A stretch of 64,000 nucleotides of DNA from assembly GCA_017744915.1 (NCBI GenBank), contig JAGIAH010000001.1, positions 558,001-622,000 of the forward strand, read 5' to 3'. A model generated the notes under the pieces. It had not been told where the DNA came from. It saw only the letters and a list, made by a program, of their open reading frames with translations, and made no database searches. A program made the position numbers and the translations under genes. Positions 11,052 to 48,992 of this stretch are shown here, one piece after another. Numbering within the stretch: position 1 is the stretch's first letter; every line of letters begins with the position of its first letter. This DNA comes from Agrobacterium tumefaciens. Lineage in GTDB: Bacteria; Pseudomonadota; Alphaproteobacteria; Rhizobiales; Rhizobiaceae.

Positions 11052-12341
11052 ATGAGCAGAAATCTTCTACCCGTATTCGCTCTTTTATCCAGCACTCTGT
11101 TTCTTTTTCTCGGCAACGGCCTGCAGGGCCTCATCCTGCCGGTGCGCGGTTCGGCGGAAGGTTATTCCAACGAAACTCTGGGCTTTCTCGGCACCTCCTG
11201 GGCGGCAGGTTTCGTCATCGGCTGCTTTGTGGCGCCGGCCATAGTGCGCCGCGCGGGGCATGTGCGGGCATTCGGATCCTTCGTGGCGCTGGTGTGCCTG
11301 ACGGTGCTGATGACCGGCCTGATCATCGACGATGCCTCGTGGATCGCGCTGCGCGCGCTCACCGGTTTCTGCACAGCCGGCACCTCGATGATCATTGAAA
11401 GCTGGCTGAACGAGCGCGCCACCAATGAGAGCCGTGGCATGATCTTTTCGCTCTATATCGCCATCACGCTGCTCGGCGTCGTCGCGGGGCAAATGATCGT
11501 GCCGATGGGCGATATCAGCAATACATCGCTGTTCATGATCTGCGGTATCATCTATTGCATCGCCATTCTGCCTGCCACGCTTTCCAAGGCTGCCAGTCCC
11601 CAACCATTGCAGAAGGTCAAGCTGGATTTGCCAGCCCTTTACCGCAACTCGCCGGTCTCCTTCGTCGGCATCCTGATGATCGGCATCGCCAACGGCGCTT
11701 ACGGTACGCTCGGCGCCGTCTTCGGCGCAAGGGCAGGTCTCGACCCGACCATGATCGCCATCATGGTCTCCGTCACGATTTTCGTCGGTGCGCTGGCGCA
11801 ATTTCCGGCGGGCAGGCTTTCAGACCGGATAGACCGCCGTTACGTGCTGGCTGGCCTCGCCGGGCTTGGCGCCGTCGCTGGCCTTGCCGTCGCCTTGGTG
11901 CAGCCACATGACGTCTATGTGCTGATTTCCATGATCGCCATTTATGGCGCCGCCGCCAACGCGCTTTATCCCATCGCCGTGGCGCATGCCAATGACTTCG
12001 CCGCATCGGAAGATTTCGTCAAGGTCTCCGGCGGCCTGCTGCTGCTTTATGGCATCGGCACCATTATCGGCCCGACGCTGGGCGGCACGATCATGACCTA
12101 CTCCGGCCCCTATGCGCTGTTTCTGGTGACGGCGGTGGCGCATCTGCTGATCACCGCTTATGCCATCATCAGAAGCCGCCAGCGCGCCGCCCTTTCCACC
12201 GAGGAAAAGGACAATTTCTCGACCATGATGCCGACAACGCCCTCGCCACTCGTCACGCCGGAAAGTATTGCACTTGACCCGCGCGCGCCGCAATATCCCG
12301 AGGAGGATGGCGACTATGTGGAAAAAGGAGCAGGCATATGA
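11052..12341 (+). CDS. MFS transporter (YcaD-like)
   Basis: 429 residues with about 12 hydrophobic segments and an MFS signature after segment 2 (WAAGFVIGCFVAPAIVRRAG) repeated in the second half (GRLSDRIDRRY). The layout resembles the YcaD group of uncharacterised major facilitator proteins; the substrate cannot be told from sequence. ATG at 11052 is chosen because the protein then begins directly before segment 1; an upstream ATG at 11010 adds 14 unlikely residues. Its stop overlaps the next gene by 4 nt (ATGA), so translation of the two is coupled. Confidence 0.85.
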   Translation: MSRNLLPVFALLSSTLFLFLGNGLQGLILPVRGSAEGYSNETLGFLGTSWAAGFVIGCFVAPAIVRRAGHVRAFGSFVALVCLTVLMTGLIIDDASWIALRALTGFCTAGTSMIIESWLNERATNESRGMIFSLYIAITLLGVVAGQMIVPMGDISNTSLFMICGIIYCIAILPATLSKAASPQPLQKVKLDLPALYRNSPVSFVGILMIGIANGAYGTLGAVFGARAGLDPTMIAIMVSVTIFVGALAQFPAGRLSDRIDRRYVLAGLAGLGAVAGLAVALVQPHDVYVLISMIAIYGAAANALYPIAVAHANDFAASEDFVKVSGGLLLLYGIGTIIGPTLGGTIMTYSGPYALFLVTAVAHLLITAYAIIRSRQRAALSTEEKDNFSTMMPTTPSPLVTPESIALDPRAPQYPEEDGDYVEKGAGI

Positions 12342-12529
12342 GCCTCTTTGACGACGACCGCCCGCAAAAACCCGTGGCACACGAGATCGGCGGCGATCTC
12401 AGCCTTCTTTCGGTAGACGAGCTGAGCAGCCGCATTGACCTCCTGCAAGCCGAAATCGCCCGACTTGAGGAGGAGAGGAAACGCAAATCCGCCGGCCGGC
12501 TGGCGGCGGAGAATCTCTTCCGATCCTGA
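12338..12529 (+). CDS. DUF1192 family protein
   Basis: 63 residues: MSLFDDDRPQKP at the N-terminus, then the conserved LSLLSVDELSSRI and a charged helix with EIARLEEERKRK. This is the DUF1192 pattern of alphaproteobacteria. It overlaps the MFS transporter gene by 4 nt and is probably translationally coupled. Function is unknown; a small coiled-coil adaptor is possible. Confidence 0.85.
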   Translation: MSLFDDDRPQKPVAHEIGGDLSLLSVDELSSRIDLLQAEIARLEEERKRKSAGRLAAENLFRS

Positions 12530-12632
12530 TGCGCGCCTCAGAATAGATACGGGCTGCACGTCTTCCAATGCTGGTTGAGGCGCCCCGGCAGCGTCTTAAA
12601 ATAAAGATCCTGGCGCAGTCTTTCGTTTACCA

Positions 12633-12647
12633 TTAACCAAAAATTAA
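12633..12647 (+). promoter_or_regulatory. CtrA-type box (TTAA-N7-TTAA) before a small transcript
   Basis: TTAACCAAAAATTAA, a perfect match to the full CtrA site TTAA-N7-TTAA. A CTATAC -10-like hexamer follows at 12664-12669. Placement relative to the -10 fits activation by the cell-cycle regulator CtrA; binding is inferred. Confidence 0.6.
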
Positions 12648-12674
12648 GCTTTCTGAGAGATTACTATACATGTC

Positions 12675-12771
12675 CAGTTCTTCTGGACCTCAGGCATCTT
12701 CTCCATACGGCGAATTGGTCTGATTTTTCTCCCTGTTTTACCTTGAGAGCCGCTTTCGCGGCTCTTTTTTT
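12675..12771 (+). ncRNA. Candidate small RNA with CtrA-type promoter and own terminator
   Basis: About 97 nt from the predicted start after the -10 (12664-12669) to the terminator T-run. The 5' end folds as CCAG-TTCTT-CTGG (extended by GT/AC if the start is a few nt earlier). The middle is single-stranded and pyrimidine-rich with CTTCTCC and TTCTCCC, which could pair with ribosome binding sites. The 3' end is the terminator hairpin. Rhizobial trans-acting sRNAs such as EcpR1 and MmgR share this style. A 17-codon frame (ATG 12669, stop 12722) exists but its ATG lies at or before the predicted start. Confidence 0.5.
12746..12771 (+). terminator. Rho-independent terminator of the small transcript
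   Basis: AGAGCCGC-TTTC-GCGGCTCT followed by seven T. It separates the upstream CtrA-type promoter from rcdA. Confidence 0.9.
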
Positions 12772-12803: not shown

Positions 12804-12818
12804 TTAACCCTTCTTTAA
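12804..12818 (+). promoter_or_regulatory. CtrA-type box (TTAA-N7-TTAA) upstream of rcdA
   Basis: TTAACCCTTCTTTAA, a second perfect TTAA-N7-TTAA, 117 nt before the rcdA start and downstream of the small-transcript terminator. In Caulobacter, rcdA is a direct CtrA target, which supports the reading. Confidence 0.6.
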
Positions 12819-12934
12819 TAATTGCCTTGCGCATTTCGGGTAAAGATACCATCCTGAAAACACTAAAGGCCGGAACAAAATATCCGGGTCGTCGTTGCCT
12901 GACAGTGTGGTGCGTGAGCAGGGATTTAAAGAAA

Positions 12935-13450
12935 ATGTCGGAACAGGTTTTAAATACCATAAGCTTTGCGGGTCGCGCGGCTGCTTCCAACCAGTTCAAG
13001 ACCCTCTATACCGAAGGCATGACCTTGGTTGAGGAGACGGCAAGTTATCTCGACGGCGCCGGCCGCGCAGCCTCCAAGGTTCTGCCGCGCATGGCATCGG
13101 TCCTCTATGCGGCAGAATCGATGCGCCTCACCACCCGCCTGATGCAGATGGCCTCTTGGCTGCTTCTGCAGCGCGCCGTCAACAATGGCGAGATGACGCG
13201 CGATCAGGTTCTGAGCGAAAAGAACAAGGTACGTCTCGACAGCTTTAATGTCGACCGCAACGCGCCCGGCTGGAACGACCTGCCTGAATCCTTCCGCGAC
13301 CTCATCGAGCGCTCGCTGCGTCTCCAGAATCGCATCGCCCTGCTCGACCGCGAAATCTATCGCCCGTCCGAAGCCGCCAAGGTGCCGGACAACGAAAACA
13401 GCGTGCAGGCGCAGCTCAACCTGCTGCGCACGGCTTTCTCAATCAACTGA
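12935..13450 (+). CDS. rcdA: RcdA, regulator of CtrA degradation (DUF1465)
   Basis: 171 residues, helical, with the DUF1465 pattern: SFAGRAAASNQFKTLY at the N-terminus, a central YAAESMRLTTRLMQMASWLLLQ helix (in part) and a C-terminal LNLLRTAFS. DUF1465 proteins include Caulobacter RcdA, a ClpXP adaptor that with CpdR and PopA delivers CtrA for degradation. The start is ATG 12935 (MSEQVLN), with AGGGATTTAAAG upstream. Two CtrA-type boxes lie upstream and a terminator follows. Family assignment is confident; the adaptor role here is by homology. Confidence 0.85.
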   Translation: MSEQVLNTISFAGRAAASNQFKTLYTEGMTLVEETASYLDGAGRAASKVLPRMASVLYAAESMRLTTRLMQMASWLLLQRAVNNGEMTRDQVLSEKNKVRLDSFNVDRNAPGWNDLPESFRDLIERSLRLQNRIALLDREIYRPSEAAKVPDNENSVQAQLNLLRTAFSIN

Positions 13451-47096: not shown

Positions 47097-47507
47097 AAAT
47101 CGAGGCGTCACACAAAATAAATTCAATACGATTTGCTGAGCAAAAGAGGATCAGCTCCTCTAAATCATAGGGCGATTCCGCGCCAAATTGAAACGTTTTA
47201 ATCTTCTCATATTAGAAATATTTTGCACTTATGACCATTTTCCAACAGCAATCGAAATCGGTGAAATCGGGCTGCCAAGACGGCCGACAGGTCTCGCCGA
47301 TATTTCGCCCCTGCGGACGCGCTGAAATCCTGGCGATCTTTATCAACTGTTAACCATAAAAAACCTATTGTTAAAGCGATGTTAAAACTTGCGTCGCCTG
47401 TCTGGTCCCTGGTTCGTCAATGTCATTTCACCGGCCTCATTTGGGCTGAGGGGAGACATTGGCAAATCTTCGATCCGGCATCGGCCAAATTCGCCGGGTG
47501 AAAAGGA
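47097..47507. other. AT-rich divergent region with a CtrA-type box
   Basis: 411 nt between the PAS gene and the outer-membrane barrel gene, clearly more AT-rich than its surroundings. It contains the TTAA-N7-TTAA box at 47371-47385. No gene is recognised. Confidence 0.5.
47371..47385 (+). promoter_or_regulatory. CtrA-type box upstream of an outer-membrane barrel gene
   Basis: TTAAAGCGATGTTAA, a perfect TTAA-N7-TTAA, 123 nt before the barrel gene. No convincing -10 follows. Confidence 0.45.
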
Positions 47508-48992
47508 ATGAGTGTGAAGGGCACCGCCACACGTCTGCCGACGTCGCGGAAAGCAGCAACCCTGCTGCTCGCCTGCACGTTTTTTTCCCCGAGCGCTTTC
47601 GCGCAGACTGCGGCGACAGCCTTGCCGGGCGCTATTCCCGCCGGCAACGGGACATTATCAGCCACACCCACAACGGAACCAGGGGCGACCACAGGCACGA
47701 CGCAGGCGGCGCCTGCGCCTGCACCCGTCCCGCAACTCTGGCGTCCCTCGAGCAATCCCGGCGATCCGATTTACGAACAACCGGACGAAGCTGGCCAACC
47801 TTATGCCGATGCCGAGAACCCCTATGAGCCGACGGTAGATGGCGGTGAAAACCCGCGAATGACAACCGAACCAGGGCAAACGCCCGGCATCCGGCTCGGC
47901 ACATTGGTTCTGCGACCTTCGATCAGCCAGACGATCAACACGGAAAAACAGACGAATACCGGCGGCCCTTCCAGACGCAACTATCTGACGACAGGCATAC
48001 GCGGTACGTTGACCAGCGACTGGTCCCGCCACGCGCTGACAGTGACGGGCGATGGCGCCTGGGAGAGAAACTTCGGCAGCGAAAAGGACGGCGAAGAGCC
48101 AAGGGCACGGATTGAGGCCGATCTGCGGCTCGATCTCGGCGCGGAAACAACCGCCAATCTCAAGGCGGGTTATGAATTCAGCCGCGAGGACACGACGGAC
48201 CCCAACGCCCTGACCGGCGCCGCCGTGCAGGGCGGCGAACACCGCTTCACCGCCGGCGCATCGATAGAGCGCGATTTCGGCAAGCTGCGCGGGCTGGCAG
48301 CGCTCGATCTTTCCCGCACGGTCTATACGGATGCCAAGGGTATCGACGGCCGGCCGATCAGCCTCAGCGACCGCGACCAGAACGGCGCGAACCTGCGCGG
48401 ACGCATCGGCTATGAATTATCACCGGCTTTGATCCCCTTCCTCGAACTGAATGTGGGGACGACCCAATATGACAGGCGTCTCGACAATTCGGGCTATGCC
48501 CGCTCCTCCAACGCCTATGGGGCGAAGGTCGGCGCGGAAGTCGATCTTGGCGAGAAGACCCGCGGCGAAGCCGCCATCGGTTATCTGCGCAAGCAATATG
48601 ACGATGATCGCCTGGCCTCGATCGGCGCATTGACGCTGGATGGCAAACTTAACTGGTCACCCCAGCGCGGCACGAACGTCAATCTCGGCTTGCGTACGAC
48701 GATAGAGGACTTCGCCGGCGGTCCACAGGGCGGCTGGGTTTCCTATCGGCTGGATGCCGGCCTGACTCACGAATTGCGCAGCAATCTGGTCGCGCGCCTG
48801 ACGGGGCAGATCGTGCATCGCACATTCCCCTCCTCCAACACGGAGGATGCCGTGGAATATACGGCAGGCGCCGGCCTGACCTGGGGGCTGAACCGCTATC
48901 TCGACCTGACCGCTGACGTCAGCTACCAGTGGACGCCGGTTTATGACAGCAACGAATTGCGTGTCGGCGCCGGACTTGTCCTGAAGCGATAA
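47508..48992 (+). CDS. Outer-membrane beta-barrel protein
   Basis: 494 residues. Signal peptide (to about 32, SAFAQ), a low-complexity Pro/Thr-rich linker (about 35-120), then a predicted barrel (about 125-494) of alternating amphipathic strands such as GLRTTIEDFAGGPQGG and WVSYRLDAGLTHEL, ending in GAGLVLKR. It resembles the BBP2-type outer-membrane proteins common in Rhizobiales. AAAAGGA precedes the ATG. Function is unknown. Confidence 0.82.
   Translation: MSVKGTATRLPTSRKAATLLLACTFFSPSAFAQTAATALPGAIPAGNGTLSATPTTEPGATTGTTQAAPAPAPVPQLWRPSSNPGDPIYEQPDEAGQPYADAENPYEPTVDGGENPRMTTEPGQTPGIRLGTLVLRPSISQTINTEKQTNTGGPSRRNYLTTGIRGTLTSDWSRHALTVTGDGAWERNFGSEKDGEEPRARIEADLRLDLGAETTANLKAGYEFSREDTTDPNALTGAAVQGGEHRFTAGASIERDFGKLRGLAALDLSRTVYTDAKGIDGRPISLSDRDQNGANLRGRIGYELSPALIPFLELNVGTTQYDRRLDNSGYARSSNAYGAKVGAEVDLGEKTRGEAAIGYLRKQYDDDRLASIGALTLDGKLNWSPQRGTNVNLGLRTTIEDFAGGPQGGWVSYRLDAGLTHELRSNLVARLTGQIVHRTFPSSNTEDAVEYTAGAGLTWGLNRYLDLTADVSYQWTPVYDSNELRVGAGLVLKR

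Follow-up and report, generated by a model that had tools for sequence, protein, structure and literature searches.

The sRNA BjrC1505, represented in Rfam by the family RF02356, is said to have been seen on northern blots in Bradyrhizobium and Rhodopseudomonas, with a lower level in nodules (work by Madhugiri from 2012). The name also occurs in a Herbaspirillum list, in the part of that paper available to us (PMC6337395), and no literature linking BjrC1505 with rcdA or CtrA was found among the sources consulted, which were mostly open-access papers without their supplementary tables. EcpR1 (SmelC291) resembles the RNA considered here as a rhizobial, ~100-nt and apparently cell-cycle-tied sRNA; in the available text of its description it is encoded downstream of divK-pleD and carries the loop UCCGCCGCAUCU (PMC4414408), and it is reported to differ in having a sigma70 promoter and induction by ppGpp and stress, as well as in locus and motif. 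CcnA of Caulobacter crescentus, as far as its description was available, shares a predicted CtrA site, a CtrA-dependent level and C-rich bases directed at ribosome-binding regions, but its gene is found at the replication origin and its pairing partners are the ctrA and gcrA leaders (PMC8959179).

Other sRNAs of the Rhizobiaceae, such as PmaR and GspR, have C-rich loops or cell-cycle targets in the excerpts at hand. PmaR is placed there on the circular chromosome between two hypothetical frames and its occurrence is limited to Agrobacterium plus a single Rhizobium strain (PMC6234868); identity with the present RNA, which occurs order-wide, was rejected on this ground. GspR was likewise rejected, being described in the available passages as confined to Sinorhizobium, with other neighbors, and absent in A. 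tumefaciens (PMC5928217). The mmgR/suhB family (RF00519) has in its alignment an unpaired CUCCCU before the terminator, as does the present RNA, but its model scored only 22.7 bits against a cut-off of 41 and this identity was also rejected.

Location and distribution of the candidate sRNA gene

Here the window, a 64,000-nt stretch of an A. tumefaciens genome, was searched for features around a candidate sRNA gene at positions 12672–12771 of the plus strand (~100 nt), in which two stem-loops are followed by CUCCCUGUU in an unpaired stretch and then by a terminator. A Pfam search of the window placed the element between a DUF1192 gene at 12338–12529 (PF06698, E 7.1e-23) and a DUF1465 gene at 12935–13450 (PF07323, E 2.4e-60), all three on the plus strand in this order. 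DUF1465 is taken here to be the RcdA family; an earlier note made from the DNA letters had placed the element directly upstream of rcdA. A conserved sRNA at 12672–12771 is almost certainly real. Strong support for a free-standing sRNA whose promoter is of the CtrA type comes from conservation, from covariation, from the almost constant promoter geometry and from a genus where the RNA and rcdA have come apart. The best explanation of the whole, to which we assign a probability of about 0.72, is an autonomous, single-copy, ~100-nt orthologue of BjrC1505 that would be activated by CtrA and would pair with mRNAs in trans. The sRNA is of a known kind. New are the promoter logic, the conserved position and the fact that the gene can part from rcdA; an orphan Rfam family thus gains a promoter logic, a conserved place beside a gene of cell-cycle proteolysis and a mode of action open to testing.

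The earlier note held that nothing in the gene list explained the element and proposed an Rfam search that included EcpR1. No match at the curated threshold was found at this site, but RF02356 aligned over its whole length (model 1–140) to positions 12626–12771 with 36.5 bits and an E-value of 2.1e-5 in a search of a short stretch with permissive filters, a score below the gathering score of 50 bits that decides Rfam membership. The window element shares with BjrC1505 the CUCCCUGU core and a terminator, and differs from it in stem-loop 2, which in the Rhizobium/Agrobacterium group is unlike that of BjrC1505, as well as in scoring below the cut-off. Of the 151 family genomes, 120 had a match to RF02356 (84 above the cut-off), as did 166 of 199 genomes of the order (138 above the cut-off); in neither search was there a match in the 14 control genomes, a set that possibly includes Caulobacter vibrioides. 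In 28 of the 30 best-scoring family loci (own locus excluded) and in all 30 of the best-scoring order loci, an rcdA gene in the same orientation began no more than ~450 nt downstream; the window element thus occupies the same place upstream of rcdA as the fetched members above the cut-off. As the RF02356 search is blind to rcdA, the common position argues independently for the window element being the Agrobacterium orthologue of BjrC1505, the orthology resting on position. The Agrobacterium RNA may well be listed already under a number in the Wilms 2012 sRNA catalogue or in supplementary tables.

The distribution was further assessed with R1, a covariance model of the transcript only, from which the promoter was excluded and for which some training sequences, including that of the window, came from the genomes searched. 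R1 matched the window element with 98.5 bits, the window being part of the training set, and found one copy in each of 135 of the 151 family genomes. The 16 genomes without an R1 match consisted of nine of at most 2.6 Mb and seven larger ones, two of which (G081 and G137) did contain an RF02356 match. At the level of the class, R1 matched 18 places in 16 of 240 genomes. An rcdA-like frame accompanied nine of these, namely the own locus, one from the same order and seven from outside the order, which belonged to six genomes of four families and included two with a weak, partial match; the remaining nine, which include one on a short contig, could be due to chance. One genome outside the order (G552) showed three R1 matches (L158, L159 and L147), of which two form a tandem pair before an rcdA-like frame and the third lies at the end of a contig, a pattern that could reflect local duplication or an assembly effect. 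In relatives, RF02356 matches typically started ~46 nt before the R1 matches, and in the window the first ~45 positions of the RF02356 model aligned with the CtrA-type box and the -10 element, so the Rfam model probably represents promoter DNA rather than RNA in its 5' third.

RNA structure and conserved motif

The structural parts anticipated in the earlier note were present, with a 5' hairpin at 12672–12688 (stem-loop 1, GTCCAG/CTGGAC), a C/U-rich segment in the middle of the element and a strong Rho-independent terminator at 12745–12771 (9-bp stem followed by a T run), in addition to a second stem-loop at 12690–12723. The 97-nt stretch 12675–12771 had a folding z-score of -4.12, none of 200 shuffled sequences being equally stable. 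Alignment A1 was composed of 63 sequences, that of the window (L001) and 62 drawn from a list of 87 distinct transcripts. Its 24 pairs were formed in 95.1% of cells, and 76 cells were changed on both sides compared with 30.0 ± 3.3 in shuffles, covariation counts that are inflated by the relatedness of the sequences. Neither the paired fraction nor the number of double-changed cells was reached in 500 shuffles, and after a shift of the partner by 1–3 columns no more than 36 double-changed cells remained. Further pair types in A1 were not unusually numerous (18, against 16.7 in shuffles, 106 of the 500 reaching as many).

Stem 1 occurred in compensatory forms among 101 loci, as ATCCAG/CTGGAT, GTCCAG/CTGGAC, GTTCAG/CTGAAC, ATCCGG/CCGGAT and GTCCGG/CCGGAC, and failed at the outermost pair in seven and at the second pair in four of these 101 loci. 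In stem-loop 2 (helices 2 and 3) five pairs showed changes on both sides; the inner helix was paired in 95.1% of cells and the outer helix in 85.7%, the lower value arising because the Rhizobium/Agrobacterium group differs there from the remaining sequences. The terminator (helix 4) was paired in 100% of cells in A1. Between stem-loop 2 and the terminator, the motif CUCCCUGUU at 12729–12737, a likely mRNA-pairing segment resembling an anti-Shine-Dalgarno (SD) sequence, was invariant in all 63 aligned sequences, with some loci of the wider order carrying CUCCCUGUC or CUCCCUGUA instead. The segment was unpaired in folds of the Rhizobium/Agrobacterium group, while in some folds of the non-Rhizobium group UGUU was paired and CCUCCC lay in a loop.

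Promoter geometry and CtrA-type boxes

Perfect TTAA-N7-TTAA boxes were found three times in the 64-kb window compared with 0.09 expected from shuffles, and two of the three flank the sRNA element. The distal box TTAACCAAAAATTAA lies at 12633–12647 (plus strand), where such a perfect box had been noted before, and the proximal box TTAACCCTTCTTTAA, also a perfect match, lies at 12804–12818 (plus strand) in the promoter region of rcdA. Conservation of the boxes was examined in loci fetched by the RcdA protein alone, the best 80 of at least 563 confirmed relatives, which lean to Agrobacterium and Rhizobium. The distal box was perfect in 74 of these best 80 and had 7 of 8 letters in the other six, whereas only 0.2% of 480 upstream control windows reached at least 7 letters; the proximal box was perfect in 80 of 80 (best 80 of at least 563), at -126 to -143 from the rcdA ATG. 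Among family loci fetched with RF02356, 27 of the 29 scored had a perfect distal box and two had 7 of 8 letters (controls at 7 or more, 0 of 174), and among order loci the corresponding numbers were 13 and 16 of 29 scored (controls at 7 or more, 0.6% of 174), the ten best-scoring order loci (L112–L121) all being among those with 7 of 8 letters. One locus in each of these two sets (L006 and L126) was left unscored since the sRNA motif was not found there. The RF02356-based loci are biased towards a box because the model covers it, a bias from which the 80 RcdA-based loci are free.

The distance from the end of the distal box to the first hairpin base was nearly fixed. Over a scan range of 19 to 30 nt, it was 24 nt in 87, 23 nt in 13 and 25 nt in one of the 101 loci with a perfect distal box (of 109 loci in total). 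The 87 loci with 24-nt spacing were reduced to 39 representatives and aligned on the first hairpin base, which revealed conserved columns for the TTAA half-sites at -39 to -36 and -28 to -25, GCTTTA at -24 to -19, (A/T)TTACT at -12 to -7 and A or G at 0. From this geometry we infer a transcription start at 12672 rather than 12675 and a -10 element ATTACT at 12660–12665 (plus strand). The -10 string CTATAC put forward previously does exist at 12664–12669, but the conserved hexamer is ATTACT, and the free-standing transcript of ~97 nt starting at 12675 that had been proposed holds up as an autonomous RNA, with a more probable length of ~100 nt that takes in all of the first hairpin.

At -39 to -25 from the predicted +1, the TTAA-N7-TTAA box falls on the -35 region and keeps a fixed distance to the start, as in CtrA-activated promoters, and the sRNA promoter would thus have the geometry in which the -35 region is overlapped by CtrA. 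CtrA very probably activates this promoter; phosphorylated CtrA would bind the box and turn transcription on, as judged from geometry and conservation. If so, this would be a very widely conserved CtrA-regulated sRNA. CtrA ChIP-seq in Sinorhizobium meliloti, in the part of the study available, showed the rcdA promoter region to be bound and yet rcdA to be unresponsive to CtrA depletion (PMC4433202). The link from this signal to the box described here is indirect; a box driving the sRNA could explain it. Also in keeping with the proposed promoter, in three agrobacteria rcdA (atu3742) is given several start sites and predicted CtrA sites in the accessible text (PMC10469942).

It might also be that the sRNA is real and that the distal box does not activate it, with CtrA repressing at this site or the box mainly serving rcdA or DNA organization. 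CtrA can indeed repress genes as well, an example in the available text being minC (PMC5928217), but the box, spaced 23–25 nt from the RNA, occupies -39 to -25 and overlaps the -35 region, and it accompanies the RNA where the RNA stands apart from rcdA, so that a non-activating box appears unlikely.

Proposed mode of action and possible targets

Under the preferred reading of a CtrA-activated sRNA pairing in trans, the RNA would fold into two stem-loops and a terminator, presenting the conserved CUCCCUGUU segment, which would pair with GGGAG-like ribosome-binding sites of several mRNAs and lower their translation. Action in trans through CUCCCUGUU is moderately likely. The sRNA would thereby carry the CtrA regulon to the post-transcriptional level. 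It would be expressed during the same phase as rcdA yet independently of rcdA, which has its own CtrA-type box, and may in this way have a role in cell-cycle control.

The nearest candidate target is rcdA, whose ribosome-binding region contains CAGGGA at 12919–12924 (plus strand), complementary to UCCCUG of the sRNA and a possible, lineage-limited target site. One could therefore propose that the main conserved role of the sRNA is UCCCUG–CAGGGA pairing with rcdA mRNA, protecting CtrA from degradation. The consensus RCAGGGR was present in 56 of 80 rcdA leaders (best 80 of at least 563) compared with 4 of 413 other leaders from the same loci, and AACAGGGA in 34 of these best 80 compared with 0 of 413, the starts of the control leaders being set by a simple codon-usage gene caller. 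For the pairing energy of rcdA leaders with the sRNA, the median stood at percentile 6.8 of the controls; 19 of 80 leaders fell below the 5th and 58 of 80 below the 10th percentile (again the best 80 of at least 563). In the own genome rcdA ranked 6th of 361 leaders by energy, the control starts again coming from the simple gene caller.

Against such a role, the RCAGGGR match was missing in 24 of 80 loci (best 80 of at least 563), many of which have CAGGAT, although the RNA motif is kept there, and 22 of the 361 leaders in the own genome matched or beat rcdA by helix length. RCAGGG occurred in only 13 of 28 family loci, counted with a 50-nt window and thus a wider window and shorter motif than in the 80 loci, and in 3 of 30 order loci within a 30-nt window (4 within 40 nt), where rcdA starts were taken as the nearest in-frame ATG (one TTG) and several are uncertain. 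The loci moreover share ancestry and the counts are not independent. Pairing with rcdA mRNA as the main conserved role is therefore quite unlikely, and direct control of rcdA by the sRNA would be at best a lineage-limited feature. A broader proposal, in which the BjrC1505 family is an order-wide CtrA-driven sRNA paired with rcdA as the gene of a CtrA-degradation adaptor, and in Rhizobium/Agrobacterium lineages additionally targets the rcdA ribosome-binding site, by which CtrA would postpone its own degradation, is doubtful to the same degree.

Other leaders were considered under the reading of pairing in trans with several mRNAs. Two exact complements of the motif occurred before an ATG at 22 and 23 places in the own genome, compared with 3 and 3 for the reversed patterns; since the patterns contain the SD-like GGGAG, any SD-like word should be similarly enriched, and the frames that follow these places are in many cases short. 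A PAS_5 (PF07310) gene (L182, G000:C21:526441–526458) has GAACAGGGAGAGATGCTATG, with a 10-nt perfect complement to UCUCCCUGUU in its ribosome-binding site. A match to the PAS_5 protein was found in 92 of 121 genomes, many of them probably paralogues, and the gene was rejected as a conserved target as the site adjoined the start in the own genome only, among 30 loci fetched. The gcrA gene, a partner of CcnA, was also rejected, with 1 of 30 leaders (30 fetched of 41 genomes searched) matching the motif of the window RNA at p below 0.05 by shuffling, no more than chance. No conserved target was thus found among the rcdA, gcrA and PAS_5 leaders tested.

Linkage to rcdA and separability from it

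A comparison of rcdA upstream regions in relatives, one of the checks proposed in the earlier note, showed the sRNA motif before a terminator-like stretch in 80 of 80 loci and a DUF1192 match in the same 80 of 80 (best 80 of at least 563 RcdA relatives). The structured element might alternatively be a cis-acting leader of rcdA, an attenuator or sensor and not a separate RNA gene, and the position upstream of rcdA on the same strand in the 28 of 30 family and 30 of 30 order loci fetched with RF02356 speaks for this reading. The two family loci lacking an adjoining rcdA (L012 and L016) both belong to one genus (g28). In G028 of this genus the sRNA and its own perfect box share a contig with rcdA at a distance of 337 kb, and in G127 they are on a different contig. 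The separated sRNA keeps box, motif and terminator, and rcdA retains its own perfect box in both genomes. The sRNA gene is therefore separable from rcdA and not simply an rcdA leader. The leader reading is further opposed by the perfect box that rcdA itself has at -126 to -143 in all of the best 80 of at least 563 loci, and by the terminator helix, paired in every cell of A1, and is very unlikely.

In seven loci (L054, L065, L071, L080, L084, L100 and L102), several of them named Neorhizobium, the sRNA is ~85–120 nt further from rcdA, as if DNA had been gained between the terminator and the rcdA promoter.

Coding potential and relation to EcpR1

The region also contains a 17-codon frame, whose ATG is at 12670 and not at 12669 as first given. 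The frame is open in the window and also in two other loci (L042 and L046), but its ATG is kept in only 23 of 101 loci, 21 of which come from the window and the agrobacterial group (L001 and L032–L053), and it would lie at -2 from the predicted +1. The frame was not kept in 8 of 11 loci inspected for it, and the changes in the stems were compensatory, the combination that had been named beforehand as favoring an RNA. On the ATG count and the loss of the frame in these loci, the coding reading was rejected, and a 17-codon peptide as the product of this region is highly improbable.

The resemblance to EcpR1 proposed earlier came down to a similar length. That the element is the Agrobacterium EcpR1 has next to no probability, the identity being refuted by location and motif: the element lies between DUF1192 and DUF1465/rcdA and not downstream of divK-pleD, where the available text places EcpR1 (PMC4414408), and none of the three exact copies of UCCGCCGCAUCU in the genome falls in the element, one of them following a frame that by eye is PleD-like (L263, G000:C21:19223). 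This latter locus is probably the EcpR1 homologue of this genome.

Other features of the window

The sole match at a curated Rfam threshold in the window was a 6S RNA (RF00013, 77.1 bits) at 1172–1330 on the minus strand. The third perfect TTAA-N7-TTAA box is located at 47371–47385 (plus strand), upstream of a 494-codon frame at 47508–48992 that by eye appears secreted or outer-membrane-like and is a candidate for a further member of the CtrA regulon.
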